Shown here: piece after piece, positions 1-18,833 of the stretch
How positions within the stretch are numbered: position 1 is the stretch's first letter
Layout: each line of letters opens with the position of its first letter
Assembly: GCA_947259575.1 (NCBI GenBank)
Contig: CAMYMU010000046.1
Coordinates: forward strand, 124,001-188,000
From: an uncultured Ectothiorhodospiraceae bacterium
GTDB lineage: Bacteria > Pseudomonadota > Gammaproteobacteria > UBA6429 > Thiohalophilaceae
Reading direction: 5' to 3'
Length of the DNA: 64,000 nt
The notes under the pieces: model-generated
What the model was told of the DNA's origin: nothing
Database searches by the model: none
Seen by the model: only the letters and a program-made list of their open reading frames with translations
Position numbers and translations under genes: made by a program

Positions 1-426
1 CTGTTTACCAACCGCTGCATCAGTAACATCATATATAACGATACCAATATTTTTAATCATTCCATTGGTACCCATAAGTGGCAGAAAAGTTATATTCTGA
101 TACATAAAGGGTGAAGCACCGGTGATGGGACGATAATTTTTAAATTTAAATACGTAGGGGCGTTGTTCCCAGGTCGTAAAAGCACGGTTTGCCAATGTAT
201 AAACAGATTCGACTTTACGCTCAAACCATTGTTGCGGTACTTCAGGAAACAGATCTAACAGTTTTTTTCCCATGACTGCATCTGCACGTTTACCGCTGCG
301 ATTCTCCATGAAGCTATTCCATAGTTTAATTGTATAATTTCGGTCAATAACGATAATACCCACGTTAATAGAGTGCACGACCCCCATTAACCAGTGTAGT
401 TCGTCAAGATCTGTATCGTCATTCAT
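1..426 (-). CDS. PAS-domain sensor protein, N-terminal part (cut by window edge)
   Basis: The reading frame starts at an ATG at 426 and stays open to base 1 (142 residues). The visible part looks like a PAS domain: a start of the type LHWLMGVVHSINVGIIVIDR, then a W-N...G.....MGKKLLDLFPE stretch typical of a PAS core, and a C-terminal segment resembling GMIKNIGIVIYDVTDAA that usually leads into an effector such as GGDEF or a histidine kinase. The effector lies outside the window, so enzymatic function cannot be given. It begins 2 bases after the stop of the receiver-CheC gene, so the two are almost certainly one operon and one signalling pathway. Confidence 0.7.
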   Translation of the reverse strand, partial: MNDDTDLDELHWLMGVVHSINVGIIVIDRNYTIKLWNSFMENRSGKRADAVMGKKLLDLFPEVPQQWFERKVESVYTLANRAFTTWEQRPYVFKFKNYRPITGASPFMYQNITFLPLMGTNGMIKNIGIVIYDVTDAAVGKQ

Positions 427-428
427 AA

Positions 429-1415
429 CTATGCCGCAACATATGAGATTAGTTGGTTAAACCTGGGTATCGAATCTTCAGTGAAGAGTAATAACAGGTT
501 CACGTGAACATCTTTATTTTCAATCGATATCTGCATATCGATTGCCAAGGTACTTTTCCAAAAATCATTTCCATTCTTTATAATATCTTCGCTCTTGGCA
601 TGTCTCCCCAGGACCATGGGGTGACTCAGACTCATATTGATATCAAACTGTTCTGCTATCCCATTTATGCAGGCACCAATCAGAATATTCGACAGATCCA
701 TCAATAATTCCATTTCGGCGGTATCATCCAACTCACCATCAAACTGGGTCATCTCTGCGATGTCTTGATAACTGGAGTCGGAAAAAACCAGCATGACCTC
801 GCCTGCCAGACCGCCGCCAATAAAGCCTTGGCAAACGGCAGAAGTACTTTCATGTTCGGTTGCTTGATGCACGGCCATTTGCAACTCACTGACTTCGAGC
901 ATACTGACATTGGGAATAGGCATGATCACGAAGGAATCCAGCACACTAGCAAGCAGTGCCGCAGCCTGCCCCATTGCAACGTTAGTAACTTCTCGATAAG
1001 CATCAAATAATTCCAGGTCCTGGGTATCATTTGCTGAATCTAATTGTTCATTATCGAGATCATATTCTTTAATGATGCCGCCCATATCAACGTTGTTGAC
1101 TGGCTTCTTAATAAAAGCCGCAGCCCCAAGACTCATCACACGCTCATTTGCCTCCGGCTGAATATCACCAGAAACGACGATAACTTTGATGTTCATTTTT
1201 TCATCATAGATATGCTGCAGGACACCATAGCCATCAAGAATAGGCATATTTAAATCAAGGAAAAGTACTTTGATTTTTCCTGTCTTGAGAATCTCGATCG
1301 CCTCTACACCATTATTGGCAAAACTCAACTCCGCATCGAAATCTTCAGGTAATGCGCGCATTAGCTGTTTTTGAGCAAAACTAGAGTCGTCGCATATGAG
1401 AACAGGGATGGCCAT
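429..1415 (-). CDS. Response regulator with N-terminal receiver and C-terminal CheC-like phosphatase domain
   Basis: 328 residues. Residues 1-120 are a receiver domain: acidic pair D9-D10, phospho-acceptor D54 in LFLDLNMP, and K104-P105. Residues 135-320 are CheC/CheX-like. The CheC-type active-site pattern D/S-x3-E-x2-N-x22-P is exact at D138/E142/N145. A second copy near SNILIGACING has the acidic residues swapped (E-x3-D-x2-N-x22-P). CheC family enzymes dephosphorylate CheY-P, so this protein may act on its own or a partner receiver domain. It sits directly upstream of a PAS protein gene. The role is inferred from domains; the partner kinase is not visible. Confidence 0.85.
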   Translation of the reverse strand: MAIPVLICDDSSFAQKQLMRALPEDFDAELSFANNGVEAIEILKTGKIKVLFLDLNMPILDGYGVLQHIYDEKMNIKVIVVSGDIQPEANERVMSLGAAAFIKKPVNNVDMGGIIKEYDLDNEQLDSANDTQDLELFDAYREVTNVAMGQAAALLASVLDSFVIMPIPNVSMLEVSELQMAVHQATEHESTSAVCQGFIGGGLAGEVMLVFSDSSYQDIAEMTQFDGELDDTAEMELLMDLSNILIGACINGIAEQFDINMSLSHPMVLGRHAKSEDIIKNGNDFWKSTLAIDMQISIENKDVHVNLLLLFTEDSIPRFNQLISYVAA

Positions 1416-1564
1416 GCTAATTACTATCGGCGATCCGCCTATTACATTTAGCGTTGGTGATGATAATTGGCTGGTAATTAGCTGAAAATGGACGGCTAGG
1501 ACAAAGACAGGGGGGGCCAGCTCTAAGCTGGTGAAATTATAGGCAAAATAAGTCTAGATCGGAC

Positions 1565-2080
<516 letters not shown>

Positions 2081-2099
2081 TCAAGGCGATAATGGCAAG

Positions 2100-2161
2100 G
2101 AGGAAGTTGACGAAAAAGCGTAGTTTACATGCAAGTAAATGAGCATTTTGAGGAAACTTCT
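2100..2161. repeat. Nested inverted repeat between guaA and tadA
   Basis: The centre TTTACATGCAAGTAAA (2124-2139) is palindromic in 14 of 16 positions. It is flanked by GAAGTT (2103-2108) and AACTTC (2155-2160), which are inverted copies of each other. No T-run follows on either strand, so it is not a standard terminator. It may be a dispersed intergenic element or an RNA processing/attenuation structure between guaA and tadA. I recall similar-looking sequences in intergenic regions of other gammaproteobacteria but cannot verify this. Confidence 0.45.
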
Positions 2162-2191
2162 AACGAAGCCAGTGCGCCTTCAGCGGATTCA

Positions 2192-3781
2192 TCATTCCCA
2201 CTCAATGGTGCCAGGAGGCTTTCCGGTCACGTCATACACCACCCGTGATATACCATCAATTTCGTTGACGATGCGACGTGAGACTAAATCTAAAAAGTCA
2301 TAAGGTAAGTGAGCCCAGCGAGCAGTCATAAAGTCGATGGTCTCAACTGCGCGCATCGCTACTACATACTGGTAACGGCGACCATCACCGGTCACACCCA
2401 CTGATTTTACGGGTAGAAATACGGTAAAGGCTTGTGAGATTCCGTGGTACAAATCGTGTTTGAATAATTCTTCGATAAAAATATTATCGGCAAGCCGCAG
2501 CAGATCAGCATATTCTTTTTTTACTTCACCCAGAATTCGTACGCCCAAACCAGGTCCAGGGAATGGGTGACGGTAAACCATGTCATAGGGCAAACCAAGT
2601 TCTACCCCAAGCTTACGTACTTCATCTTTGAACAGTTCGCGTAAAGGCTCGCATAATTTTAATTTCATATGCTCAGGCAAACCGCCGACGTTGTGATGTG
2701 ACTTAATTAAATGCGCCTTGCCTGTTTTAGCACCCGCAGATTCGATCACATCTGGATAAATCGTTCCCTGTGCCAGCCACTTAGCTTGCTTAAGCTTACC
2801 TGCTTCTTCTTCAAAGACTTCGATAAATAAATTTCCGATTACTTTGCGTTTGCGCTCCGGTTCATCCACACCTTTGAGGGCAGCGAGAAAACGCTGTTCG
2901 GCATCGACTCGAATCACTTTCACGCCCATATGCTCAGCGAAGGTTGCCATGACCTGATCACCTTCATTTAAACGTAACAGGCCATTATCGACAAATACGC
3001 AAGTAAGCTGATCGCCTATCGCCTTATGCAGTAATGCTGCTACAACTGATGAATCTACGCCACCCGACAAGCCTAAAATAACTTCATCGTCACCAACACT
3101 TTCTCGAACGCTAGCAATCGCATCGTCAACAATATTGCTTGGATTCCATAAAGATGCACAGCCACAAATATCATGCACAAAGCGTTCGATGATTCGCTGT
3201 CCCTGCTGGGTATGAGTCACTTCCGGATGAAACTGTAACCCATAGAAATGTTTTTCTTCATTGGCGATCCCGGCAATCGGTGCAGAGTCTGTTGAGGCCA
3301 TCAATTTAAAACCATCAGGCAACTCAGTCACGTGATCACCATGACTCATCCAGACATCAAGCAGGCCATACCCTTGTTCCGATATTTCATCTTCAATGTC
3401 TTTTAACAACGCGGTGTGACCACGGGCACGCACTTTAGCAAAGCCATATTCATGCTGATCTGCATTTTCGACTTTGCCGCCTAACTGTGACGCCATAGTC
3501 TGCATGCCATAGCAAATACCTAAGACGGGTACCCCAAGTTCAAAGACCGCTTGCGGTGCTTCAGGCGCATCATCACCGATTGTACTTTCAGGGCCACCGG
3601 ATAAAATGATGCCACTTGGCTTAAAATTATTGACGTCCTCATCGCTGATATCCCAGGCGTAGAGCTCGCAATAGACTCCGGCTTCGCGGATACGACGCGC
3701 AATAAGTTGTGTGTACTGGGAACCGAAATCCAGAATTAAGATACGGTCCTGATGGATGTTTTTATGAGTTGAATCTGACAC
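2192..3781 (-). CDS. guaA: GMP synthase (glutamine-hydrolysing)
   Basis: 529 residues. Converts XMP to GMP using glutamine and ATP. N-terminal class-I glutamine amidotransferase: nucleophile Cys in GICYGMQ and the His/Glu pair in [10 protein letters not shown]. The central ATP-pyrophosphatase P-loop is LSGGVDSS, and the C-terminal dimerisation domain ends in the conserved GTIEWE. It begins 10 bases after the guaB stop, the usual guaB-guaA operon. Confidence 0.97.
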
Positions 3782-3791
3782 TTGCCAGCGA

Positions 3792-5261
3792 CTAGCTTTC
3801 GGTTCGGTAGTTGGGCGCTTCTTTCGTAATGGTCACATCGTGCACGTGACTTTCACGCATACCTGCATTGGTTACTCTGACAAACTTGGGTTTAGTACGC
3901 ATTTCTTCAATCGTGCGGCAACCGGTATAACCCATACTGGAGCGAATGCCACCTAACAGTTGGTGGACAACAGGCATCATCGACCCCTTAAACGGCACCC
4001 GACCTTCAATACCTTCCGGTACCAATTTCTCTGCCTCTCCACCTTCCTGGAAATAGCGATCACTAGAGCCATGCTGTTTACTCATCGCCCCCATCGAACC
4101 CATGCCACGATAAGACTTGTAGGAACGACCTTGATAGAGCTCCACTTCACCCGGTGACTCCTCGGTACCAGCAAACATACTGCCGATCATCACACAATCA
4201 GCACCAGCCACTAAGGCCTTTGAGATATCACCAGAATAACGAATGCCACCATCGGCAATAACTGGGATATTTTTGCCATTCAAGGCTTCGACTACATTGG
4301 CAATAGCACTGATCTGAGGAACACCAACACCCGCCACAATTCGAGTGGTACAGATTGAACCTGGGCCAATGCCCACCTTGACGGCATCGGCGCCCGCTTT
4401 CGCAAGTGCCAGTGCAGCTTCCGGGGTGGCGATATTTCCACCAATCACCTGCATACTAGGGTAATTCTTCTTAACCCAGGCAACTCTGTCTAGTACTCCC
4501 TGGGAGTGACCATGAGCCGTATCGACCACGATCACATCTACACCAGCCTCAACCAGTAATTTCACACGCTCATCGGTGCCTTCACCCACACCCACAGCCG
4601 CGCCAACGCGAAGCTGACCATCAGCATCTTTGCATGCATTTGGGAATTCTTTGGCTTTCTGGATATCTTTGACAGTAACCAGACCACGCAGCTGAAAATC
4701 TCCGTTAACCATCAGTACCTTCTCGATGCGATGTTTATGCAATAGAGCCTGAACCTCGGCCTTGCTCGCCCCTTCAGTGACGGTCACCAGGCGATCCTTT
4801 GGGGTCATGATATTGCTGACCGGGTCATCCAATCGTGTCTCAAAACGAAGGTCGCGGCTGGTTACAATACCGACTAATTCTTCACCATCTACTACTGGCA
4901 CGCCTGAAATGCTGCGTGCATGGGTCAGGTCCATGACTTCCCGAATACTGACATTTGGTGAGACAGTGATAGGGTCTTTAATCACACCGCTCTCGAACTT
5001 CTTCACAGCATGCACCATAGCGGCCTGGGCATCGGCAGTCATATTCTTATGAACTATGCCTACCCCACCCTCCTGGGCAATAGCAATGGCCAGACGGGCC
5101 TCCGTAACGGTGTCCATCGCGGCTGATAATAAAGGGATATTTAATTGAATCTGGGCTGTCAAGCGGGTTTTCAGACTGACATCGCGAGGCAGAATGTCCG
5201 AATGGGCAGGGACGAGGAGTACGTCATCAAAGGTTAGGGCTTCCTCAATAATTCTCAGCAT
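3792..5261 (-). CDS. guaB: Inosine-5'-monophosphate dehydrogenase
   Basis: 489 residues. Oxidises IMP to XMP with NAD+, the committed step to GMP. The TIM barrel starts [14 protein letters not shown]; two CBS domains are inserted at about residues 95-200 ([15 protein letters not shown] and [13 protein letters not shown]). The catalytic Cys is in [15 protein letters not shown]. The flap [10 protein letters not shown] and the C-terminal [10 protein letters not shown] are conserved. First gene of guaB-guaA; divergent from the SoxK-like gene across a 245-base spacer. Confidence 0.97.
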
Positions 5262-5506
5262 CGAGCGGCATCCACATCCAGTTGCGTTAAAGTCGCGGAT
5301 TATAAAGATTTTCTAATACAGCGACAATCAAAACTTTTTTCTTCCGTCAAGCCCTTCTTGGCATTGCCAAGTACATCATCTTATGCGCATAATGTTCGAG
5401 TTGCGTGTGACCGGCCCGCCAGGGCAGGATACAAATTATATATCACACGAAAACAGCTAATTAGCATTTTCTTAAGAATTAAACGCGTTTGATTTTGGAG
5501 GAACAC
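5262..5506. other. Divergent intergenic region guaB / SoxK-like gene
   Basis: This spacer must hold the promoters of guaB (minus) and the SoxK-like gene (plus). A perfect 6-3-6 inverted repeat, CTTGGC-att-GCCAAG, lies at 5357-5371. No convincing -35/-10 pair could be chosen by eye, and I recognise no known operator. Confidence 0.4.
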
Positions 5507-5818
5507 ATGAGAAAAATTATTCCATTCGCCATAGCAGCAGCTTTTGCACTGGGTGCCTGTGCCAGTGGTGGCGGATCTTCTGAAGCTAATAAGGGTGATG
5601 CGAGTTCAGCAATCACAGCAGCCGAGCATGAGAAAAAGCGTGCAAAGGGTAAAGGCTATGAGTGGCGTGATACTGGCAAGATTATTAAAAAAGCCAAGAA
5701 AGCAATGAAAGCCGGTGACTATGATAAAGCCGTTAAGCTTGCTAACAAGGCGAAGCGCCAAAGTACTAATGCACTTGCACAGTACGAACAGCAAAAAAAT
5801 GCAGGACCAAACTACTAA
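5507..5818 (+). CDS. SoxXA-binding protein-like (SoxK-type) small lipoprotein
   Basis: 103 residues from the ATG at 5507, chosen because GGAGG (5497-5501) lies 5 bases upstream. The N-terminus is a lipoprotein signal peptide with lipobox ALGAC. The mature part is Lys/Ala-rich, with the pattern GYEWRDTGKIIKKA, AGDYDKAVKLANKAKRQ and a C-terminal QKNAGPNY, which matches my memory of the SoxXA-binding protein (SoxK/SAXB) family, known to stimulate the SoxXA cytochrome in thiosulfate oxidisers. No sox genes are nearby and family members occur outside sox clusters, so the function is tentative. Followed by a strong terminator at 5841. Confidence 0.6.
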   Translation: MRKIIPFAIAAAFALGACASGGGSSEANKGDASSAITAAEHEKKRAKGKGYEWRDTGKIIKKAKKAMKAGDYDKAVKLANKAKRQSTNALAQYEQQKNAGPNY

Positions 5819-5840
5819 TTCATACACGATTTAGTTGAAG

Positions 5841-5870
5841 AAAAGGCCGGGATTTTCCCGGCCTTTTTTA
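5841..5870 (+). terminator. Rho-independent terminator after SoxK-like gene
   Basis: Stem AAAGGCCGGGA / TCCCGGCCTTT around a short T-rich loop, followed by a T-run (TTTTTT). It sits 23 bases past the SoxK-like stop, making that gene monocistronic. Confidence 0.9.
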
Positions 5871-5936
5871 TTGCATGTTACTTTTTCTGTCGAACTAATA
5901 CATGAAGAAATCAGCAACACAGGATATTATGTGGAA

Positions 5937-7295
5937 ATGAGTGACCATCCGATGAACACGACAATCCAACGCGATATTTATTCAATCAGTCGCTTGAACT
6001 CAGAAGCAAAAAGCCTGCTCGAAGGCAGCTTTCCTTTGCTTTGGGTGGAAGGTGAGATCTCTAACCTCGCCTGCCCTGCCTCGGGTCATTGGTATTTTTC
6101 CCTAAAAGATCAAAAGGCCCAGGTCCGCTGCGCTATGTTTCGCAATCGAAATGCTCACCTTGGCTTTGTCCCTAAAAACGGCATGCAAATATTGATCAGG
6201 GCACGAATTAGTCTTTATGAAGCACGAGGTGATTTCCAGATCATTGCCGAACACATGGAAGAATCTGGCGATGGTGCCTTACGTAGAGCATTCGAGGAAT
6301 TAAAAAAACGCCTGCAAAGTGAAGGTCTATTTGCAGCTGAACACAAACAGGCTCTACCTGAACACATCGAAACTATTGGCGTGATTACATCACCCAGTGG
6401 TGCAGCGATTAGGGATATCCTGACCACTTTGAAACGACGTTACCCTGCGGCTAGCATCAACATCTACCCGGTCGCGGTGCAGGGAAATGAAAGTGCAGCA
6501 CAAATTGCCGATATGCTCAAAACCGTCGACAAAAGAAACGAGTGTGACGTCATCCTCTTGGCAAGAGGTGGTGGCTCCCTTGAAGACCTCTGGTCCTTTA
6601 ATGAAGAAGTTGTTGCACGCGCTATTTTCAGTTGCTCAATACCAATAGTCTCTGGCATCGGTCATGAGATCGATTTCACCATCGCCGATATGACAGCTGA
6701 TATTCGCGCTGCTACCCCAACTGCAGCGGCTGAAATAGTCAGCCCTAATCAGTACGAGTTACGAGCACGGTTACAACAATCCATCTCACGATTGAGCAAT
6801 GTAATGTCGAGGACATTACATCGATATACTCAGCAGGTCAGCTGGCTAAGCCAGCGGCTGCAACATCCGGGGCGCCGCTTACAGGATTTATCGCAACGCC
6901 TGGATGACTTGCAGCTCAGAATGAGTCAGGCACAAACTCGTTATCTGCGCCACACCTCAATGCGCGTTAGTCATCTGAAAGATAAATTGGCAAGCCTGCA
7001 CCCCAAGCAAGCTATTGGTGTTAAGAAACAGCGGCTGGTATATTTATCACACCAGTTAAAACAAACGACAGAACAGTTGTTAAAAGCAAAACAACATCGC
7101 TTTATTCAAACAATGAAAACACTTAACGCGGTTAGTCCGCTAGCGACATTGGAACGTGGATACGCCATTGTCACCAAGCCTACTAAGGGTGAAATCTTAC
7201 GAGATGCGCACGATGTAAAAACTGGTGATAAAGTTCATGCAAAGCTGCATATTGGACAATTAATCTGTACCGTCGATAATATAGATTATGATTAA
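5937..7295 (+). CDS. xseA: Exodeoxyribonuclease VII large subunit
   Basis: About 452 residues from the ATG at 5937. The frame is open further upstream, but that part overlaps the preceding terminator, and the family N-terminus (MNTTIQRDIYSISRLN) begins near here; a GTG at 5931 with AGGA at 5921 or the ATG at 5952 are alternatives. It forms the ssDNA-degrading ExoVII complex with XseB. OB-fold N-terminal domain (WVEGEISNLACPASGHWYFS), catalytic core with VITSPSGAAIRDI, LARGGGSLEDLW and SGIGHEIDFT, and a long coiled-coil C-terminal half. The partner gene xseB is far away at 55026. Overlaps the next gene by 8 bases. Confidence 0.93.
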   Translation: MSDHPMNTTIQRDIYSISRLNSEAKSLLEGSFPLLWVEGEISNLACPASGHWYFSLKDQKAQVRCAMFRNRNAHLGFVPKNGMQILIRARISLYEARGDFQIIAEHMEESGDGALRRAFEELKKRLQSEGLFAAEHKQALPEHIETIGVITSPSGAAIRDILTTLKRRYPAASINIYPVAVQGNESAAQIADMLKTVDKRNECDVILLARGGGSLEDLWSFNEEVVARAIFSCSIPIVSGIGHEIDFTIADMTADIRAATPTAAAEIVSPNQYELRARLQQSISRLSNVMSRTLHRYTQQVSWLSQRLQHPGRRLQDLSQRLDDLQLRMSQAQTRYLRHTSMRVSHLKDKLASLHPKQAIGVKKQRLVYLSHQLKQTTEQLLKAKQHRFIQTMKTLNAVSPLATLERGYAIVTKPTKGEILRDAHDVKTGDKVHAKLHIGQLICTVDNIDYD

Positions 7296-8136
7296 ACGCT
7301 TAACTCTCACTTTACTTGTACTGTTTATAGTTACAACTAGCTATGCCGGTAGTCTACCAAGACATTACCCTGTCCCAGGTGGAATCGCAGTTATCGAACT
7401 CGGTAGTCACCGCCCTGACAAAGTTACATTTAAAAAACGCAAAGTGCTGGTCACTCAATCTGGAAAGAAGTGGCATGCAGTTGTCGGGATCCCACTTTCG
7501 AGTAAAGCAGGCAAATACAAACTCATAGTGACTCGTCAGAAGCAGCAAAAGCAAATCAAATTCAATGTGATTAAAAAGCAGTATCAAACGCAGCATCTGG
7601 AGATAAAAAACAAGCGGAAGGTAAACCCCTACGCTAAAGATATGGATCGCATAATTAAGGAAAAGAAAATAATTGGTGCCGCATTAAAGGCATGGACTGA
7701 AGCACACGATATATCCTTCACATTCGATTTACCGGTTGAAGGTCGGTTTAGTAGTCCATTTGGATTACGCCGATTTTTCAATGGCCAAGCGCGCCGTCCC
7801 CATAGTGGATTAGATATTGCAGCACCTGAAGGCACACCAATACTGGCACCCGCAGAAGGCACCATCATCAATACGGGTGATTATTTTTTTAATGGCAATA
7901 CTGTATTCATCGATCATGGGCAAGGACTGATTACAATGTATTGCCATCTAAACAGAATATCAGTCAAAGCAGGTGACACAGTAAAGCGTGGTGATTCAAT
8001 TGGCGAAGTCGGTATGACCGGGAGAGTGACAGGCCCACACTTGCACTGGAGTGTGAGCCTGAATAACGCGCGTATTGAGCCTAAGTTATTTCTAGCTAAA
8101 AAGTACCAGAACGGTTTACAACTAAAACACGAATAA
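7288..8136 (+). CDS. M23-family murein endopeptidase, exported
   Basis: 282 residues. Signal peptide about residues 1-20 (LTLTLLVLFIVTTSYA). Residues 21-100 form an Ig-like N-terminal domain of the Peptidase_M23_N type; residues 145-275 are a LytM/M23 zinc peptidase: HSGLD (zinc His and Asp) and HLHW (zinc/catalytic His). The conserved frame RRPHSGLDIAAPEGTPILAPA is intact, so an active peptidoglycan endopeptidase in the periplasm is expected. Translationally coupled to xseA. Specific physiological role unknown. Confidence 0.88.
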   Translation: MIKRLTLTLLVLFIVTTSYAGSLPRHYPVPGGIAVIELGSHRPDKVTFKKRKVLVTQSGKKWHAVVGIPLSSKAGKYKLIVTRQKQQKQIKFNVIKKQYQTQHLEIKNKRKVNPYAKDMDRIIKEKKIIGAALKAWTEAHDISFTFDLPVEGRFSSPFGLRRFFNGQARRPHSGLDIAAPEGTPILAPAEGTIINTGDYFFNGNTVFIDHGQGLITMYCHLNRISVKAGDTVKRGDSIGEVGMTGRVTGPHLHWSVSLNNARIEPKLFLAKKYQNGLQLKHE

Positions 8137-8160
8137 TGGAAACCTAATTACCAAACCTTG

Positions 8161-8505
8161 CTAGTGAATGTTTTGTAATTGTTCAGGTTGTACGGGTAAA
8201 CCAGCTATACGCATCCATTGTGAAACTGGTTTGTTTGGAAACAACACTTCAAGATAAGCCTTTCCGTCTGTTAATCGAAAGTCCTTCTCTAGTTTGCGAA
8301 CAATTAATTCATCATCATAATTATTTCCAAACTTATCATAATCCGCTCTTAGCCAAAGTATCACTTCGATATGTTCCTGAGTCAGATTGATGCCTTCTGC
8401 GGCCGCAAGACCATAGGCCGTAATCAGACTCCAATATTGTAGCGAGTCAAGGTAATGAATTTTTTCCTGTAAGGGTACCGCAGTGTTAGGGGATGTGACT
8501 GACAT
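8161..8505 (-). CDS. DsrC/TusE-family protein lacking all cysteines (RspA-like)
   Basis: 114 residues from the ATG at 8505, chosen because AAAGGAGG lies 6 bases upstream; a longer frame exists without such a site. The pattern AAEGINLTQEHIEVILWLRADY and the C-terminal LFPNKPVSQWMRIAGLP correspond to the DsrC/TusE fold. DsrC carries two redox cysteines at the C-terminal arm and TusE one; here the arm ends LPVQPEQLQNIH and the protein has no Cys at all. Cysteine-free homologues have been described as RspA, presumed regulatory. It therefore cannot act as a sulfur carrier by the known mechanism. Convergent with the M23 peptidase gene and divergent from the ECF sigma gene. Confidence 0.72.
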   Translation of the reverse strand: MSVTSPNTAVPLQEKIHYLDSLQYWSLITAYGLAAAEGINLTQEHIEVILWLRADYDKFGNNYDDELIVRKLEKDFRLTDGKAYLEVLFPNKPVSQWMRIAGLPVQPEQLQNIH

Positions 8506-9091
8506 GTGTTGCCTCCTTTCTATCTGTAGCCAGAATTGATAAAAACTAGTTTCAAAAGTCATTGCATCTATCAAATCTAGTCGTTCAGCTGCAGCCCTTT
8601 ATATCCAAAGTGCGTTAGGGTAAACATATAATAGACGATTTTTTTACTAATCCAGCCGCTGACTTAACCCTGGAACACTACTATCTGCGTTTATCCTAGT
8701 TAATTTGGGTAATTAGCGACAAGAGTTTATAAATAGTCGATAAATTACATGTATCTTATTGTTTTTATGCTGAATTTTCATGAGATTTACAGAACTATAA
8801 AAAATAATAATTAGTAAACAGCATCTATTCTAGGTGCAATTAGCTTACACCGCAGGAAGGTCCATAAGCAGGAGGCGTTTTTATCCGCAAACTTAAGTAA
8901 TGCGCAAAAAGCGTGAAGGAACGACAGAGATGAACACAACAACTCACCCCAGGTTGTGCTCGAATTGGCAGTCCAACTTTCCATTGCGATTCGAACAAAA
9001 GTGCTTTGCAGAATATTTAAGCAGTCACTATGCTGCTCGTAGTTTGCTGAGACTAGGCAAGTTGTTGATAATCGCGTACATTAAGCCCAAC
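8506..9091. other. Intergenic region between DsrC-like gene and ECF sigma factor gene
   Basis: AT-rich spacer. A frame in line with the sigma gene is open from 8900 but its product before 9092 does not resemble any sigma domain. An isolated AGGAGG at 8870-8875 has no suitable start codon just after it. TATTAT-like boxes occur on the minus strand near 8625-8635 ahead of the DsrC-like gene. No terminator or known riboswitch recognised. Confidence 0.35.
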
Positions 9092-9661
9092 ATGCGTGAT
9101 GAAATTACTAACGAACAATTAATGCTGCAGTACAAGGATGGAGATGCCAACGCCTTTGAGGTGTTGTATACACGCTTTCGTCTACCCATGTTTCGTTACC
9201 TAAAAAACCAGTGTGGTAATGAGGCTGTTGCAGAGGAAATATTCCAGGATGTCTGGATGAATCTTGTCCGCGCCCGAGAGCGTTACCAGGTAACCGCCAG
9301 CTTCAAGACGTATATATACCGTCTTGCTCATAACCGATTAATCGATCACTACCGTAAACAAAAACATGGTGTGCCCAGCTCGTATGATGAGCATGAAGGC
9401 CTTCTAAATACTGAGGACACGGCTAACCACCTTACACCACAGCGTCAGGTAAATTCTGATCGGCAAGTCGACAAATTATTAAATGCCATAGCTGAGTTAC
9501 CCGAAGCACAACGCGAGGCATTTTTACTAAAAGAGGAATCCGGTCTCTCGGTCGAAGAAATTGCCGACATGACCAATGTAAAACCCGAGACAGCGAAAAG
9601 CCGACTTCGCTATGCAATGAATAAGCTTAAACAAGCAGTTGAGTTAGAACACTATGGCTGA
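9092..9661 (+). CDS. RNA polymerase sigma factor, ECF (sigma-70 family)
   Basis: 189 residues if started at the ATG at 9092, where family similarity begins (NEQLMLQYKDGDANAFEVLY). Region 2: FRYLKNQCGNEAVAEEIFQDVWMNL with YRLAHNRLIDHYRK; region 4: LPEAQREAFLLKEESGLSVEEIADMTNVKPETAKSRLRYA split over residues about 130-175. The frame is open to 8900, which would add 64 non-conserved residues; no clear ribosome binding site decides the matter. Overlaps the downstream gene by 8 bases, the arrangement expected of a sigma/anti-sigma pair. Confidence 0.82.
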   Translation: MRDEITNEQLMLQYKDGDANAFEVLYTRFRLPMFRYLKNQCGNEAVAEEIFQDVWMNLVRARERYQVTASFKTYIYRLAHNRLIDHYRKQKHGVPSSYDEHEGLLNTEDTANHLTPQRQVNSDRQVDKLLNAIAELPEAQREAFLLKEESGLSVEEIADMTNVKPETAKSRLRYAMNKLKQAVELEHYG

Positions 9662-10145
9662 TCAAAAGACAAGTGATACAGAATTCGATGACTACCTAAA
9701 AGGTGAGTCTGCCCTGTCTGATCTTTACCACCAGAGTGAGACCGATGGTCCAGGTAAAGATATTGATAATGCTATCCTCAGCGCCGCACGCCAGGAGGTA
9801 AAACAAACTTCGTCAGGTTCATCCAGTAAAAACTATCGTTGGTATGTCCCGCTGGCACTAGCTGCCAGCCTGATTATTGCTGTGTTTGCCATACGCATCA
9901 TCCCTCTCGACAACTCGCTCGACCCGGATCAAGTGGCCGAAAATGATCAGCAAGCTAATACAGGACAACACGTCGGCTCAGGTAAGGCGGCACCTGATGT
10001 AATGCTTGAAAAAATTAATGAATTAGTCGCGAGCGGTAATAAAGACGAGGCTCAACAAGAGATAGATCTGTTTGTTGAGTTATTCCCTGATTATAAGATA
10101 GATTTTAGTAAGTATCCGGCTTTAAAAGAGCTCTCAATAAAATAA
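9654..10145 (+). CDS. Putative anti-sigma factor, single-pass membrane protein
   Basis: 163 residues. Cytoplasmic N-terminal part (about 1-60) with DDYLKGESALSDLYHQ, a pattern common in proteins encoded after ECF sigma factors; one membrane helix at about residues 63-83 (WYVPLALAASLIIAVFAI); then a periplasmic C-terminal region that looks helical (LEKINELVASGNKDEAQQEI). No zinc-binding HxxxCxxC is present, so it is not a ZAS-type anti-sigma. Function is inferred from overlap with the sigma gene and topology. Confidence 0.6.
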   Translation: MADQKTSDTEFDDYLKGESALSDLYHQSETDGPGKDIDNAILSAARQEVKQTSSGSSSKNYRWYVPLALAASLIIAVFAIRIIPLDNSLDPDQVAENDQQANTGQHVGSGKAAPDVMLEKINELVASGNKDEAQQEIDLFVELFPDYKIDFSKYPALKELSIK

Positions 10146-10147
10146 CG

Positions 10148-11542
10148 TTATTTGCGTTTTGCGTGTTTCATTAAACGCCGACGTTTTGCTACCTGTCGCG
10201 GGGTTAATTTGTTTTTTCGACCTTTGAACGGATTATCACCTGTTTTGAATTCGACCCGCACTGGTGTTCCCATCAATTTTAAGTGCTTGCGAAAACTATT
10301 AATCAAGTAACGTTTGTAACTATCAGGTAACGACTGAGTCTGGTTGCCATGAATAACAATCACCGGAGGATTTTTACCCCCCTGGTGTGCATAACGTAAT
10401 TTCACCCGGCGACCATGTACTAAAGGTGGTGGGTTGGCATTAACCAAATCGGTCATTAAACGTGTCAATCTGGGAGTAGGAATATTAACCATCGCTGATC
10501 GATATGCCTTTAGAATAGAGCCAAACAAATCCCCTACTCCGCTTCCATGTAGCGCAGAGATAAAATGTTGCTTAGCATAATTAATAAAAGGAAGCTTAAA
10601 GTCCAGCTCACGTCTTACTTTATCGCGCTGATCTTGTGACAGACCATCCCATTTGTTGATCGCAATAACCAGTGCTCTTCCAGAATCAGTTACAAATCCG
10701 ATTAAACTTGCATCCTGTTCTGTCACACCTTCTGAGGCATCCAGTATCATTAGTACTACATGTGAATCGGCAATAGCTTGTAGTGCCTTAATCACACTAA
10801 ACTTTTCGATCATTTCATTGACGCGACCACGACGTCGCACACCAGCAGTATCAATCAAGGTGTACTTTTGACCATCGCGTTCAAACGGTAAATAAATGCT
10901 ATCGCGTGTCGTGCCCGGCATATCAAAGGTCACAACACGTTCTTCGCCAAGGATGCGATTTGCCAGTGTCGACTTTCCAACATTCGGTCGACCGACGATG
11001 GCGACCTTTATTCCTGATAAATCATCTTCTTCATCGTCCTCAGTTTCAAAATCACCTGTTAGCTCTGTGATCATGGCCGTCACACCGCGACCATGCTCAG
11101 CTGCAATCGGGTACATACTTTCGAAACCAAGCTGATAAAAATCATTCAGAACCAGATCTTCATTCAGGCCATCAATTTTATTAACAATAAGGTGTACGGG
11201 TTTGCCGGTTTGTCTGATCCGATCGGCAATCTTCTGATCGCCTGGTAACAAACCGTCACGTGCATCAACAAGGAATAAAATCTGATCGGCTTCTTCTACT
11301 GCCTGCCAGGACTGGATTGCCATAATGCTATTAATGTCTTCCTGATCATCACTAAGCCCACCCGTGTCGATAACCAGGTATTTGGCACCGCCTAGCTTGC
11401 CTTCACCGTATTTACGATCACGCGTCAAACCTGGCTTGTTTGCAACGAGAGCATCACGTGTACGTGTCAAACGATTAAACAGCGTCGACTTGCCCACATT
11501 TGGACGTCCAACCAGTGCTAGTACAGGTTTTAAAGCAGACAT
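10148..11542 (-). CDS. der: Ribosome assembly GTPase Der (EngA)
   Basis: 464 residues. Two tandem G domains, each with GRPNVGKST (about residues 12-19 and 183-190), DTGG/DTAG and NKxD motifs, then a KH-like C-terminal domain ending in basic residues ([11 protein letters not shown]). Acts in 50S ribosomal subunit maturation. Distal gene of the minus-strand cluster from ndk/rlmN; lies next to bamB as in most gammaproteobacteria. Convergent with the anti-sigma gene, only 2 bases apart. Confidence 0.96.
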
Positions 11543-11583
11543 TTTATTTTCCGATCTTAAAGAGTGTAGTGACGAAGCAGAAA

Positions 11584-12792
11584 TTACGGATAAGAGGCTT
11601 TAAAAGCTTCCGTATTCCCGTGTCGATCAATGGCGATCAATACATTACCCGTAGTTATCGGTGTGGCTAAAATATCTTTAGATTTCGGATATTCGAGATC
11701 TTCTTGTTCATCCAGGCTAGGGTCTGTGAAATCAAAAGAATCTAATCGTACCCTGGCAGCAAGTTTTCCACTATCACGTTTAATCCAATGCAAGTATCCA
11801 TTAAAATCACCGAGCACAATATAATTTGAATGTAAGACAGGCTTGGTAGCGCTACGTCGTAGCAAAGAATCCTGCTTCCACTGCGCCACCCCATTACTTT
11901 TATCCAGCGCCCATATTTTTGAGTTTGAATCGACGACGTATATTCTGTACGGATCGACCACCATGCCAATATAAGAATCAATATCTCGACTCCAGATAAT
12001 CTGACCCGAACCCAATGAAACCGCTGCCAATTTCCCCTGGAAAGCAATGGTATAGGCGACATCATCCGAAACCACAATATCTGCATCGATATCTACCAGA
12101 CGCTCTAGTGTAGTACGACCACGAGCATCAGCTATCTTTCTTTGCCAAACAACTCTGCCAGTTTGTAAATTGTAGGCAATCAGTTTTCCATTATCGAAAG
12201 CACTTAAAACTAAATCATTTGAAATAACCGGTGCACTGGTACCACGCAGTGTTAACGAAGGAGTAACTTGTCTATCAGTCCAGACTTTTTCCCCGTCAGA
12301 AGCCTTAAATGTATAGATCTCACCATTAACACAGCGCGCGACTACGTAACCTCTACCTACAGCAGGTGCGGCAAGCACCTCACTGCCGACACGAGCCTTC
12401 CAGATGACCTTGCCTGTTTTACGCTCAATCGCAACAAGGTAACCTTCACTGGTACCAAGATAGAGTGTTTCACCACTCAATGTAAGCGGGCTCCCTACGT
12501 CCATATCAAGTTTCGTTTCCCAGCGAAAACTACGATCACTAATTCTAAGCGCAGAGACGACACCAGTATGATCAACGCTATACAATATATTCTCATGCAA
12601 GACCGGGGTCAGCCTTAAATAATTATCACCCGCACCATCACCTACCTGAAACTGCCAAAGTTTCTCGATCGAAAATGTATTTGAAACTTTCTGTAGCGTT
12701 TTTGGCGGCTCTAAAAGTGAGCTAGAACAACTTGCCAGAAATAATAAAATCAATGGCAGCAGTGTTATGGAATGTAACTTTGGGCGTAACAT
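11584..12792 (-). CDS. bamB: Outer membrane assembly lipoprotein BamB
   Basis: 402 residues. Lipoprotein signal with lipobox LASC near residue 22. The mature protein is an eight-bladed beta-propeller with PQQ-like repeats, visible as recurring [23 protein letters not shown]-type blocks. A non-essential subunit of the Bam complex inserting beta-barrel proteins. Located between yfgM and der, the canonical order; 2 bases separate it from yfgM. Confidence 0.93.
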
Positions 12793-12794
12793 AA

Positions 12795-13469
12795 TTATTC
12801 GCTATCCCCAGTTTTGCCTATCTCTGGTTTAGCTGCAGCTGGCTTAGCTCCCAAATCGTCCAGCTTCATTTGGACAAGCTCACGCTGCTTACCTCCAAAT
12901 GATGTAGAAGCCAGGGCTAATTCATATGCACTACGTGCCTTCTCAATATCGCCGCGCATTCTATAGATATCACCTTTGATCACTGCATATTTAGCATCAA
13001 AAGCAGGCTCACTGATATCTTTTAACAACTTCTCAGCCTCATCTAGTGCATTTTTTGCGACCAGCATCTTGGCTAAACGAAGCCGTGCGATATGTCCGAC
13101 TGAATCATGCCCTGGGTGTGAAGTTGCCCAGCGCAAATGTTCTATTGCTTTATCCGTATCACCTTTTGCATAGTCAACTGCAGCCATGCGCAGTGCTGAT
13201 AAAGCCGCATATGTGGTTCCTTCATAATCTTTTTTTAATGACTCATAACTTGTGGCTGCATCAATCTTTTCATCACCAATCGCTGTTACAAACTCATCAT
13301 AAAGTGCAGACGCTGCCAGAGATCGTGTCTCTTTGTATTCGGTCCACTTCCAGAATCCAATGATGGCACCAACACCAATCACAATACCAACTACAATAGC
13401 GGTACCATTTTCCTTCCACCATTTTTTCAATACTTCTACTTGTTCGTCATCTGTTAACTGTTCACTCAT
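12795..13469 (-). CDS. yfgM: YfgM family TPR protein, ancillary SecYEG translocon subunit
   Basis: 224 residues. N-terminal cytoplasmic EQVEVLKKWWKENG, one membrane helix about residues 23-42 (GTAIVVGIVIGVGAIIGFW), then periplasmic tetratricopeptide-like repeats. In E. coli YfgM associates with PpiD and SecYEG. Placed between hisS and bamB as in the family's usual neighbourhood. Confidence 0.88.
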   Translation of the reverse strand: MSEQLTDDEQVEVLKKWWKENGTAIVVGIVIGVGAIIGFWKWTEYKETRSLAASALYDEFVTAIGDEKIDAATSYESLKKDYEGTTYAALSALRMAAVDYAKGDTDKAIEHLRWATSHPGHDSVGHIARLRLAKMLVAKNALDEAEKLLKDISEPAFDAKYAVIKGDIYRMRGDIEKARSAYELALASTSFGGKQRELVQMKLDDLGAKPAAAKPEIGKTGDSE

Positions 13470-13486
13470 TATCTTTAACCATTAGT

Positions 13487-14773
13487 TTAGGAATTCGTTT
13501 GATTTGCATAATTTTGCAACCAGGCCAATAACTCTGATTGCTTTATCGTTACTTGTTCTGCACCCGTTCGAAGCTGCTTAATTGTTATTTGGGATGATGC
13601 CATTTCATCTTCACCCAATATAAGCGCTAATTTTGCCTGACTTTTGTCTGCCCGTTTCATCTGACTTTTCAGGCTACCACCACCAGCGTGCACATGAAGT
13701 CTCAATGCTGGAAGCTCGTCGCGTAACGATTCGGCCAATCGTCGCCCATGGATCTGAGCTTCTGGGCTTAGCATTATAAAATAAGCGTCCGGTAGTTGGA
13801 CAGAATTCGCTAGAAAATCTCCATCCAACAGTGAAATTAATCGTTCAATTCCCATGGCAAAACCCACCGCTACAGTGTCGCGCCCACCTAATTGTTTGAC
13901 TAAGCCATCATAGCGCCCACCCGCACAGACTGTACCCTGTGCACCGAGGTGATCAGTAACCCATTCAAAGACCGTTCTGTTGTAATAGTCCAAACCGCGT
14001 ACCAGGCAGGGATTGATTCGATATTTGATACCGTGCTCATCAAGAATTAAGCACAATTCCTTAAAGTGTTGCTCCGACTCCTGATCAAGGTGTTCAGCCA
14101 GTTTTGGTGCTGCCTCAACGATCTCGCGCATGTCAGGATTTTTGCTATCAAGAATACGTAATGGATTGGAGGTTAAACGCCTCTTTGAATCTTCATCCAG
14201 CTTATCTTCATGACCTTTAAAATAATCCACCAGGATGTCACGATAAGCTGCGCGCGCTTGATTAGAACCAAGAGAATTTATTTCAAGTTCGACTTTGTCC
14301 TGAATTTCAAGCAGTTTCCAGAACCTGGCTGTCATCAGAATCAATTCTGCGTCAATATCAGGACTTGCAATACCAAAGACTTCAACACCCAGTTGGTGGA
14401 ACTGACGGTAACGGCCTTTCTGTGGACGTTCATGCCGAAACATAGGACCGGCATACCACAGCTTCTGAACCTGGTTATGCAATAACCCATTTTGCATGGC
14501 TGCTCGTACACAACTCGCGGTTCCTTCCGGGCGCAAAGTTAAACTATCACCGTTACGATCGTCAAAAGTATACATTTCTTTTTCGACAATATCGGTCACT
14601 TCACCAATGGAGCGTTTAAACAGACTGGTCATCTCCAGTAATGGCATACGAATTTCTTCGTAACCATAATTATCCATCAGTTGCTGGAAGACACGCTCAA
14701 CTAATTGCCAGCTTTTAATATCCGCTGGCAAGATATCGTTCATTCCACGAATTGCTTGAATTGACTTACTCAC
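13487..14773 (-). CDS. hisS: Histidyl-tRNA synthetase
   Basis: 428 residues. Class II synthetase: motif 1 around [18 protein letters not shown], motif 2 [20 protein letters not shown], the histidine signature [15 protein letters not shown], motif 3 GFAMGIERL, and a C-terminal anticodon-binding domain. Begins 10 bases after the rodZ stop. In many relatives ispG lies between rodZ and hisS; it is absent here. Confidence 0.97.
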
Positions 14774-14783
14774 GATATGACTT

Positions 14784-15707
14784 TTATTCTTCTGTTAAAC
14801 CAAGGCGAAAATATGCTATTTGATCTCGTTGATAACGCTTGTGATTAAATGATTTATTCTTATAAAAAACCGCAACGCCCTCAGCATTTCCTAGTAAAAT
14901 TGTATACGGTGCAACTCCGTTGACATGTATTTCTGTGTCCTTCGCAGCTAGGCGGTAAACATGACGCTTACCTTCAGAGTCTGTAATTTCAATCCAGGAG
15001 TCTTCACTAACGACTAGTTTCAAGTCTCCACTTTCTACCTGCTCTGCTACTACAGCTGCTTCAACCGCAACATCACCTTCATCAATAAGTAATGGCGAGG
15101 GAGATGCTGACTCTTCGTTTTGTGCAATAGCCACTTCGGTTCGTTCTGCATTAAATTGTTGTATCTGCTCCTGAACCTGAGCTGGCCGTTCAATAACGGC
15201 TGATTGATTCATCTCTGGTTGATTCATATCTGGAACTGGTACATCAATCGTAGTTGATTCAGTATTGGCGGTAGTGTCAAACATTTGAAACTTCTCAGCA
15301 AACCACATGAAGCCCGCTGCGACTAATAATGCAATAAGAATAAGCACCACAAACTTAATTATTCCGGGATTGATCTTTTTTTCTGGTTCCATACTCACGG
15401 TTTCTGGAATCAGAGCTGCATTGATCTCCTGTCCTTTGCTATACGCACTAACTATTTCATCCTCAGGTAATTTAAGGATACGTGCATATGAACGTAAGTA
15501 ACCACAAATATACGCCGGTGAGGGTAAGTCATCGTACTTGTCGGTCTCAAGCGCCTCGACAATATTGACATCAAGATGAAGGTGATGAGCAACCTCATCT
15601 TTACTAAGATGCAAGTCTTCACGAGTTAACTTTAATCGGTGCCCGGGTAAAGCAACAGTTGGTGCTTCTTTTTCCTGGGTCTCTGTTTCTTGATCATGCT
15701 CAGACAT
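14784..15707 (-). CDS. rodZ: Cytoskeletal protein RodZ
   Basis: 307 residues. N-terminal cytoplasmic helix-turn-helix of the HTH_25 type ([19 protein letters not shown]...[18 protein letters not shown]), a single membrane helix about residues 112-132 ([20 protein letters not shown]), a Gln/Pro/Asn-rich periplasmic linker and a C-terminal DUF4115-type domain ([18 protein letters not shown]). It links MreB to the cell-wall elongation machinery. Two bases from pilW upstream. Confidence 0.9.
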
Positions 15708-15709
15708 GG

Positions 15710-16468
15710 TTATATCTTGCCCTGCCGTTCAAGTTTGATAAGTAGTTTCGCTTCCTTCGAGTCAGGGTACTTACCCTTCAGCTTGACTTTATAACTCGCG
15801 ACTGTATTTTTAGCTCCACGTGCATTTTCCAACAAAATCCCCAACCATAGACTCTCAGAATTATGTGGCGCAATTGCGACATAACGGGAATAGAGTGAAT
15901 AGGAAGCCTCACTGTTGCCAGCATCAAACCGTATTTGTGCTAGTTGCAACAAACTCTTTGCCATTCTGGGGTTAATCTTTAATGCTTCAGAAAAAGCCTT
16001 TTCCGCCTGAGTAACAAGCCCTTGCCGTAACCGACACAAACCAATATTTTCGTATGAGCTCGCTTTATTTGCATATAGCGAATCAGATAATGGCTTTTTG
16101 AAAAGAGCGATAGCTTCATCATACTTGCCTAAATCGCAAAGATAGACGCCATAATTATTTTGAATAGTAAGATTGTCAGGCTGTAGATTCATTGCAATTT
16201 GAAAATGTTTATCTGCATTTTCAGGGTCGTCTAAACGGCGATAGAGTTCTGCCTTGTAATGATGAGCATCCGCATTTTCCGGATCAAACTTTAATGACTT
16301 ATCTAATTTGACGAGTGCTCGCTGGAACTGTCCCTGCTGCATGTAGCCTAATCCAAGTTGCGCATTCAGTTGTGACGCTCGCTTTACATCCGTCGGAGCA
16401 AGAACTGTTTCAGTGGTACAGGCGACCAAAAAAAGCATTAAACAACATATGCCCAGAGTCTTTCTCAT
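15710..16468 (-). CDS. pilW: Type IV pilus biogenesis lipoprotein PilW/PilF (TPR)
   Basis: 252 residues. Lipobox LVAC near residue 16. At least five tetratricopeptide repeats follow, for example [20 protein letters not shown] and [20 protein letters not shown]. The family (PilF in Pseudomonas, PilW in Neisseria) is the pilotin for the PilQ secretin. No other pilus genes are in the window. It overlaps the rlmN stop by 4 bases (ATGA), so translation is coupled. Confidence 0.88.
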
Positions 16469-17565
16469 CGAGTTATTCCTCCACTATCGCGTCTCAATTT
16501 TCTTTTGGTTCGATCCATTACCTGACCTGCCAACTGGCCGCAGGCAGCATCAATATCTTCACCGCGTGTCTTACGAGTAATTGTTGTAAGTCCCTTCGCG
16601 ATGAGCACATCACGGAAGGCATCAATTTTTTCTTGTGATGAGCAACGGTAATTAGTGTTGGGAAAAGGATTAAAGGGAATTAAATTCACTTTTGAGGGAA
16701 TGTTCTTGAGTAACTTAGCTAAAGCCAATGCATCCTGCCTCGAATCATTGATACCTTCCAGCATTACATATTCAAACGTGATTTTACGCCGCGGTTCATC
16801 CGCAATGTAATTTTTACAAGCCTGCATCAATTCTTTGATTGGATATTTTTGATTCAAAGGAACGATTTCATTTCGCAATTCATCATTAGGTGCATGTAGC
16901 GATACCGCAAGACTAACATCGCTCACTTCCTTTAAGCGATTCATTGCCGGAACAACACCAGAAGTACTTAAGGTTACACGCCGTTTAGACAACCCATAAG
17001 CATCATCTTCAAGCATTAGTGATATCGCTTTAATCACATTATCAAAATTCAGTAATGGCTCACCCATACCCATCAATACAATATTTGAAATCATTCGTTG
17101 TTCACGTGGCTGACAACCCATCGCCTGATTAGCAACCCACAATTGCCCAATAATTTCAGATACAGTTAAATTTCTGTTAAATCCCTGCTGCGCTGTCGAA
17201 CAAAAACGACAGTCAAGTGCACAGCCTACCTGCGAAGAGATACACAAGGTGCCCCTGTCGGCCTCTGGAATAAAAACGGTCTCGATGCAATTCTTCTCGT
17301 CCAGCTTTAAGACCCACTTGATAGTGCCATCATGGGAGCGATGTTCGCTGAGCATTTCAGGTGGTCTGACCTCCGCAATCTCGATTAATTTTTCGCGCAA
17401 GGACTTGCTCAAGTTCGACATTGAGTTAAAGTCTCTGACCCCAAACTGGTAAATCCACTTCAGTACTTGCGAAGCACGAAAGGGCTTTTCCCCTAGTTCA
17501 GAAAAAAAGGCTTCTAATCCGGCTTTATCCAGATCAAGCAAATTAACTTTTAAATTTGAATCCAA
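16465..17565 (-). CDS. rlmN: Dual-specificity 23S rRNA/tRNA adenine-C2 methyltransferase RlmN
   Basis: 366 residues. Radical-SAM enzyme methylating A2503 of 23S rRNA and A37 of some tRNAs. The 4Fe-4S ligands are C115, C119 and C122 in GCALDCRFC. The SAM-binding MGMGEPLLN and the C-terminal catalytic Cys in AACGQLAG are present, as is the second catalytic Cys region near YRCSSQEK. Lies between ndk and pilW as in pseudomonads and relatives. Confidence 0.96.
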
Positions 17566-17582
17566 TTGACAACCTTCGCAAA

Positions 17583-18014
17583 TTAACGAGTACGCGGACA
17601 GAGCCCATCATCGCCGAAGAAAAATGCAATTTCAGTGGCCGCCGTCTCAGCCGCGTCGGAACCATGTACCGCATTTTCAGTAATATCCGTGGCAAAATCG
17701 GCCCTTATAGTTCCCGCCGCTGCCTCTTTGGGGTTAGTGGCGCCCATTACTTCACGATTTTTCGCAATGGCATCTTCGCCTTCAAGCACCTGGACCATAA
17801 TGGGGCCTGAAGTCATATAGTCCACTAACTCACCATAAAACGGACGTTCTTTATGCACAGCATAAAATTCGCCTGCCTGTTCTTTAGTTAAATGCATCAT
17901 CCGGGCTGCGATAATTTTCAGCCCCGCCTTCTCAAATCGAGCATAAATCTCACCGATAACATTCTTTGCCACGGCATCAGGTTTGATAATCGAGATGGTA
18001 CGTTCAACAGACAT
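17583..18014 (-). CDS. ndk: Nucleoside diphosphate kinase
   Basis: 143 residues. Transfers the gamma phosphate of ATP to NDPs through a phospho-histidine; the catalytic His is in [12 protein letters not shown]. The N-terminal [15 protein letters not shown] is typical. Upstream of rlmN by 17 bases. A hairpin at 18055-18072 separates it from the isc operon. Confidence 0.97.
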
Positions 18015-18052
18015 TTGAAACTCCAGAAAATTCCAATATTTACAATAACATA

Positions 18053-18074
18053 AACCCGCACCTTAGCGCGGGCT
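18053..18074 (-). terminator. Candidate weak terminator of the isc operon
   Basis: GC stem CCCGC / GCGGG (18055-18059 with 18068-18072) in the spacer between iscX and ndk; read on the minus strand it is followed by TTTATGTTATTG, only a weak T-run. A second small hairpin, CGGG-CTATAA-CCCG, lies just after the iscX stop at 18157-18170. Together they may end or attenuate isc transcription before ndk. Confidence 0.4.
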
Positions 18075-18172
18075 ACATTCACAAATCCACAAGGATTTGA
18101 TCGGAAATTGTATCTGTTCGGAGGGAGTTTGGGAAATGAAAAACCTAGCTAAATTGCGGGTTATAGCCCGGT

Positions 18173-18373
18173 TTAATCGCGTTCCTCAAGCCAGGCCATC
18201 TGAATAGCTTCCAGGATCCGCTCACCCGAATGCTCCGGGTCGTCATCAAATTCGTCCAACGCCATCACCCAGTTGCGCAGATCGACAAAATTCACTGTTT
18301 TAGGGTCCATATCGGGGTAGGCCTCATCTAGCTGAATCGCTATTTCCAGGCTATCGGTCCATTTCAGGCTCAT
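18173..18373 (-). CDS. iscX: Fe-S assembly protein IscX (YfhJ)
   Basis: 66 residues, family size. Starts MSLKWTDSLEIAIQLDEAYPD and contains the conserved VNFVDLRNWV and acidic EFDDDPEHS. Small acidic protein that binds IscS and iron and modulates cluster synthesis. Last gene of the isc operon, 29 bases after the fdx stop. Confidence 0.95.
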   Translation of the reverse strand: MSLKWTDSLEIAIQLDEAYPDMDPKTVNFVDLRNWVMALDEFDDDPEHSGERILEAIQMAWLEERD

Positions 18374-18402
18374 GTTTCACTCCTCTTCACTCGTCATACC
18401 AC

Positions 18403-18741: not shown

Positions 18742-18833
18742 TGTTCCAGTAACACCTTTACTCATAATTTTTGCGGAAATCCTGATTTATTCAGAGGTTC
18801 CTGCGGCACATGGATGAATTGTTCAGAGATACA

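Follow-up and report, generated by a model that had tools for sequence, protein, structure and literature searches.

A cysteine-free, apparently functional paralogue of the DsrC family in an uncultured gammaproteobacterium

We describe a gene of the DsrC family whose product contains no cysteine, located in a 64,000-nucleotide stretch of genomic DNA that we refer to as the window. We conclude that it is a real, apparently functional, cysteine-free DsrC-family paralogue with a mechanism that we infer. The reading we prefer, with a probability of roughly 0.55, is that of a functional, genus-restricted paralogue that carries no sulfur and works as a protein-docking module in an adaptor or regulatory capacity. 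The features of the locus are as follows.

7288–8136, forward strand: M23 peptidase gene, convergent neighbour; in three other genera the sigma gene comes immediately after a homologue of it (identified by eye)
8161–8505, reverse strand: cysteine-free DsrC-family gene, 114 amino acids plus stop (from translation, profiles and predicted fold)
8512–8519, reverse strand: Shine-Dalgarno sequence AAAGGAGG, separated by 6 nt from the ATG at 8505 (from the sequence)
8620–8794, no strand assigned: conserved non-coding block, 86 of 180 columns identical among the own genome (G000), G002 and G003
9092–9661, forward strand: ECF sigma factor gene, divergent neighbour; the start at 9092 was chosen by conservation
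9654–10145, forward strand: gene of a putative anti-sigma factor that overlaps the sigma gene; its product matches no domain and has a single hydrophobic stretch, seen by eye

Identity, integrity and distribution of the gene

The 114-residue translation of 8161–8505 contains 0 cysteines, and profile searches assign it to the DsrC family: the match to PF04358 scores 61.3 bits (E 1.3e-16, cut-off 24.9) and that to the DsrC/TusE family TIGR03342 lies just above its threshold (54.3 versus 53.5). The protein has family and fold in common with TusE but lacks the C-terminal cysteine that TusE requires, and it falls far below the TusE equivalog NF008562 (42.6 versus 191). Canonical DsrC carries a pair of redox cysteines in its C-terminal arm and is encoded within a dsr cluster; the window protein has neither cysteine, and its gene lies outside such a cluster (neighbours read by eye). 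The first-pass annotation, which was made from the sequence, had described a DsrC/TusE-fold protein without cysteine whose arm had lost both redox residues, and both statements are confirmed. Without the redox cysteines the known route of persulfide relay is closed, which supports the annotation's further claim that sulfur transfer by that route is impossible; a role other than carrying sulfur is the sensible default. Cysteine-free homologues of DsrC are reportedly called RspA, and the window protein agrees with that definition, a DsrC-family protein without the conserved cysteines. A literature search for RspA together with DsrC returned unrelated papers only.

It is unlikely that a sequencing error or frameshift hides the cysteines. 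The orthologues in two genomes of the same genus (G002 and G003) likewise have no cysteine at either arm position, and an AGLP..C arm is absent from both of the other frames around the 3' end of 8161–8505. The G003 orthologue has one cysteine in its tail, one residue past the usual place by our own count, so the zero-cysteine statement is true of the window protein and the G002 orthologue and not of G003. The ribosome-binding site of the gene is strong. Between G002 and G003 the dN/dS ratio is 0.13 (dS 1.30; synonymous sites are saturated when this gene is compared with that of G000), and the gene is under purifying selection. This ratio is the highest of six genes compared between the two genomes, the others being the putative anti-sigma gene (0.08), bamB (0.07), the M23 peptidase gene (0.05), der (0.02) and the sigma gene (0.01). 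Error or decay is unlikely because G002 and G003 share the loss of the arm cysteines and show this ratio between them.

Of 58 genomes, the own one included, the window protein has a match in 44 and PF04358 in 45; clear orthologues at the same place occur only in G002 (52%) and G003 (54%). Within the genus an orthologue is found in 3 of 4 genomes, the relevant contig of the fourth (G001) having its first base about 170 bp upstream of the sigma gene. Among named genomes, a scan with two narrow peptide patterns recovered only the same two orthologues (2 loci). Of 369 genomes sampled from the class, 160 had a match at E <= 1e-9; none scored as high as the own gene (192 bits), the next best reaching 78 bits (G124).

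Predicted fold, family placement and conserved surface

An AlphaFold (AF2) model of the window protein, built on a 48-row alignment, has a pLDDT of 80.0 and a pTM of 0.67. When this predicted model is used as the query, ranks 1–7 in Foldseek are all members of the DsrC family (best E 1.2e-3), and VIA-align returns eight DsrC-family chains at Z 8.5–12.9, followed by a next row at 4.8; in a sequence search against solved structures, ranks 1–4 of 8 are likewise DsrC-family proteins. The predicted structure has the DsrC fold. The first-pass assignment to the family withstands the two objections raised with it, namely a tree or structure model outside the family and a sequencing error: the predicted fold matches, and the orthologues are cysteine-free at the arm. 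The core is less well kept than it states: three conserved residues are replaced (W46, R66 and Y86, see below), and the N-terminal 15 residues are modelled at low confidence without strands and bear no recognisable likeness to the VNGK..ETDEE segment of DsrC.

For the family trees we collected 118 domains from 113 distinct proteins, which are not an unbiased sample. By their arm cysteines, 40 domains have neither, 39 both, 21 the first only and 14 the second only, and 4 are not readable by the rule used. Leaving out 21 near-identical canonical DsrC rows gave a first tree of 97 rows, and removal of three long branches gave a second tree of 94; both come from a quick search on few columns with no bootstrap, and the program warns that the window protein is a long branch. 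The window clade (3 rows) has an SH-aLRT of 99 in the 97-row tree, where it is grouped (SH-aLRT 98) with 3 other rows and all 26 members of a cysteine-depleted DsrC clade with an SFGSV-like tail, for which we coined the label FG-tail. In the 94-row tree the corresponding set consists of the 26 FG-tail rows, the 3 window-clade rows and 1 other row (SH-aLRT 98). The FG-tail group includes 13 proteins with neither arm cysteine, 12 with the first only, 1 with the second only and 0 with both. It is the nearest group in the trees and has the LFP..PV.Q...AG block in common with the window protein, which differs in a near-frozen helix 1 and in an arm that ends VQPEQLQNIH in place of the SFG[ST]-like tail.

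The cysteine-free KGGY proteins, 16 in number, group apart in a clade of their own (SH-aLRT 100). Fourteen of these 16 are in genomes searched for dsrA, and 9 of the 14 lie 2.1–2.9 kb from it (in G007 the reference is a partial dsrA that scores below the cut-off), with the other 5 on another contig. This clade, often near dsrA, served as our stand-in for RspA. A tree joining the window clade with the FG-tail proteins improved on the free search by 3.1 log units (p-AU 0.60). Two alternatives were not rejected by the AU test: the window protein with the KGGY clade (p 0.27) and the window protein with DsrC/TusE (p 0.23). By these sequence comparisons the placement with the FG-tail proteins is favoured, not proven. 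The DsrC/TusE/RspA tree proposed in the first-pass annotation leaves two alternatives to the favoured position unrejected; the RspA-type reading is not supported as worded there, both trees setting the protein apart from the KGGY clade, although the AU test does not reject that grouping.

Other variants of the family were observed as well. In fused double-domain DsrC proteins (L022 1066–1794, L034 1024–1770, L038 1477–2217, L039 1039–1770 and L086 7564–8310) the first domain has lost both cysteines and the second keeps the last one. Tandem two-cysteine DsrC-like genes with an extended C-terminus (NDCVDWP, NDCVDWPA or NDCVDWPG) lie at L126 1093–1839 and L131 1101–1842. A variant with a shifted first cysteine, IKCANK[VI]AGLPRPKGCS, was read in G000, G003, G001 and G034 (L007 8497–8832, L093 7484–7834, L119 7364–7714 and L120 6350–6685).

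Viral relatives of the family were also considered. Passages of two papers report phage DsrC sequences with both cysteine motifs (23), the second only (112), the first only (1) or neither (5) (PMC8190135), and viral dsrC without the second cysteine (PMC4164917). A viral origin of the window gene was rejected: a scan with the FG-tail alignment and one peptide pattern found 38 viral loci, in which 0 of 37 arms read were cysteine-free or FG-tailed, and a viral scan with the window clade found no relative. A phage collection contained one weak match, a DsrC/TusE-like stretch with 37.5% identity in Salmonella phage OR851037.1 (1363–1626 of a 3.2-kb record), which may be host DNA.

Several landmarks of DsrC are kept by the window clade, namely W25, H45, R53, LFP and AGLP, the last two within a block LFP..P..Q....AGLP next to the arm. 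In contrast, W46 is replaced by I, R66 by E, V or I, and Y86 by E, H or Q in its three rows, at positions conserved in 85%, 92% and 90%, respectively, of 61 other aligned rows (the FG-tail, KGGY, DsrC, NDC and TusE groups, with other variants left out). The arm is variable in the clade. Residues 17–41, comprising helix 1 and the following turn, are invariant among the three orthologues at 20 of 25 positions, compared with 5 of 31 for residues 54–84 (Fisher p 2e-6), a pattern read from three sequences of one genus in regions picked after the alignment was seen. The same comparison gives 10/25 versus 13/31 (p 1.0) for the paralogue at a flagellar locus (G000, G001 and G003), and 24/25 versus 24/31 (p 0.06, same direction) for the KCAN paralogue, which is nearly invariant throughout. 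In canonical DsrC the order is reversed, with mean pairwise identities of 0.52 (17–41) and 0.86 (54–84), and in the FG-tail group the two regions are about level (0.30 and 0.34). The conserved face of helix 1 reads Y-W-S-x-I-x-A-Y-G-L-A-A-A-E-G-I. The residues retained and lost suggest a changed working surface.

Gene neighbourhood and relation to the dsr genes

In all three genus genomes in which the arrangement can be tested (3/3), the DsrC-like gene is divergent to the sigma gene and sits reversed between the peptidase and sigma genes. G003 has two genes inserted on the peptidase side; a two-component system (by eye) lies between its peptidase and DsrC-like genes (L073 8693–10755). The first-pass annotation had placed the gene divergent to an ECF sigma/anti-sigma pair, which stands for the sigma gene but less firmly for its partner at 9654–10145, for which neither Pfam nor NCBIfam gives a match at E <= 0.01. 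A small gene with an F..YL.G.S.LS..Y-like motif (by eye), common to the putative anti-sigma, follows sigma in several genera.

Homologues of the sigma factor occur in G019 (67%), G007 (68%), G022 (64%) and G037 (56%); weaker ones in G047 and G012 lie elsewhere. A peptidase gene (by eye) directly precedes sigma in G019, G022 and G037, with a small partner gene after it; in G007 another gene stands between peptidase and sigma, and the partner gene is not listed. The DsrC-like gene is absent between peptidase and sigma in all four. As sigma occurs there without it, the association looks recent, and the simplest reading is that the DsrC-like gene is a later insertion between the two genes in this genus, with losses elsewhere being possible.

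The conserved block at 8620–8794, single-copy in the genome, may be where the DsrC-like gene has its promoter. Among the same three genomes, the interval 8795–9004 is poorly conserved (30 of 210 columns identical) and conservation resumes before sigma (46 of 106 columns). With one block nearer each gene, this looks like two separate promoters, as judged from three sequences. A promoter scan gave 3 hits against 3.1 expected and a terminator scan 0 against 0.9. We rejected a hidden RNA element in the gap: Rfam gave no match at E <= 0.5 over 8100–9200, and the predicted RNA fold of 8600–8800 on either strand showed nothing unusual.

Six PF04358 members, the window protein among them, are present in the own genome, which is 95.85% complete with 3.45 Mb in 70 contigs; none of the six is a canonical two-cysteine DsrC. 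One ends IKCANKVAGLPRPKGCS and one ITKYGGLPKPTGCV. A cysteine-free member with the terminus RKGGY is encoded 2.5 kb away from dsrA in divergent orientation, and the gene of a member with the terminus SFGTSC is flanked by flagellar hook-associated and flagellin genes, as judged by eye. The search for a canonical DsrC elsewhere in the genome, suggested in the first-pass annotation, is thus negative among the six members, but the contig ends inside the dsrB-like gene next to dsrA (TIGR02064 601 bits), so the assembly may just have failed to capture a canonical gene. An FG-tail paralogue between flgL-like and flagellin genes (by eye) is present in 3 of 4 genus genomes (L010 8457–8819 in the own genome, C1; L076 8299–8652; L077 1990–2349), flanked in G001 and G003 by an ORF of 95–101 amino acids, the G003 copy having no Pfam match. 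The sixth DsrC-family gene is split by a frame change (L011, C49:39000-56000, about 8296–8596) and has an intact relative in G008 (L100 7492–7827).

Within the genus, dsrA exceeds the cut-off in 1 of 4 genomes, compared with the DsrC-like orthologue in 3 of 4. G003, which is 99% complete, keeps the orthologue, and its best dsrA match of 50 bits is far below the cut-off; G001 and G002, also without dsrA over the cut-off, are 86% and 70% complete, absence from drafts being weak evidence. G034, which carries an FG-tail protein, has no dsrA at E <= 1e-60. The DsrC-like gene appears not to depend on DsrAB. Proteins of the DsrE family (PF02635) exceed the cut-off in 4 of 4 genus genomes, the own genome having 7 matches at E <= 0.001 and 6 over the cut-off, with DsrE, DsrF and DsrH not distinguished. 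DsrEFH and IscS had been named as candidate partners, and neither dsrEFH nor iscS was seen by eye beside the gene in positions 1–20000 of the window or at two orthologous loci, so that the gene neighbourhood lends this proposal no support. Across 23 FG-tail and window-clade loci, gene families recurring between genera are mostly broad or housekeeping (named by eye); a DUF4389 gene recurs in two. Elsewhere in the window, 5489–5818 encodes a small lipoprotein-like product scoring just under the cut-off of the SoxAX-binding protein NCBIfam (92.5 versus 95).

Proposed role and competing explanations

Our preferred docking role draws on the absence of cysteine, the predicted DsrC fold, purifying selection, the further residue losses and the constraint on helix 1, and an adaptor function is proposed because the chemical residues are lost. 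Helix 1 would bind a putative partner protein through its conserved face, the altered arm would no longer be the working part, and the gene would be a duplicate, derived from the cysteine-depleted FG-tail clade, that inserted between the genes for the M23 peptidase and the sigma factor. A more specific account, which we advance tentatively and with the odds somewhat against it, is that one genus has turned a sulfur carrier with a swinging arm into a docking protein that acts via helix 1 without DsrAB or thiol chemistry, as the extreme of an FG-tail radiation outside dsr operons.

A regulator of the RspA type, that is, a cysteine-free DsrC homologue acting on gene expression and perhaps binding DNA through a winged-helix-like core, seems unlikely. 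The missing cysteines and the unrejected grouping with the KGGY proteins are compatible with it, as are the winged-helix or helix-turn-helix proteins PerR (Z 4.8), LexA (3.8) and KorA (2.6), which appear together with proteins of other kinds among the unrelated structures ranked lower than the DsrC chains, and PMC7787665, in a passage citing Venceslau 2014, mentions a putative function of DsrC in regulating transcription. However, the trees separate the window protein from the KGGY clade, and no sulfur gene was seen adjacent by eye in the window or at two orthologous loci. Of 11 groups compared, the window clade has the lowest mean net charge (-6.3, 3 rows), which does not favour DNA binding, an argument that is weak because canonical DsrC is also acidic (-4.6). 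It is improbable that the protein is a decoy that occupies a partner of DsrC or TusE (DsrEFH/TusBCD or MnmA) without taking sulfur, tuning sulfur flux. The block kept next to the arm and the DsrE-family proteins in every genus genome would suit such a competitor, but R66 and Y86 are lost, the arm is variable, and in Allochromatium vinosum the contact between DsrC and DsrEFH strictly requires DsrC-Cys111 and DsrE-Cys78, according to a passage of PMC3397948.

We consider it very improbable that the protein is part of the adjoining ECF sigma/anti-sigma system, although the divergent arrangement recurs throughout the testable genus genomes and an FG-tail gene in G055 also adjoins, convergently, a sigma-factor gene (DUF6596 type). 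Against this, sigma does without the DsrC-like gene in four genomes, three of which have the partner gene, the conserved non-coding blocks stand apart, and no adjoining sigma gene was seen at the other FG-tail loci listed (by eye, on longest-ORF calls that are poor in GC-rich genomes). The signalling role that the first-pass annotation drew from this neighbourhood is not supported as stated, the association being apparently recent. A decaying duplicate without function, already disfavoured, seems to us scarcely credible: divergence from the orthologues is fast (46–50% identity), about that of the putative anti-sigma gene (44–49%), but it is opposed by the dN/dS ratio, a frame open in three species, the strong ribosome-binding site and the nearly frozen helix 1.

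Sulfur oxidisers carry several DsrC-family genes with unsettled roles. A. vinosum has four besides dsrC, with roles listed as unresolved in a passage of PMC3368242, and expression changes of its DsrC paralogues are mentioned in part of PMC11267869. What is new here is the loss of three further widely conserved residues together with a near-frozen helix 1. A cysteine-free paralogue under selection, present also in a relative without dsrA over the cut-off, suggests that the DsrC fold is used independently of the sulfur relay, and the conserved face of helix 1 offers a concrete surface for a partner search.
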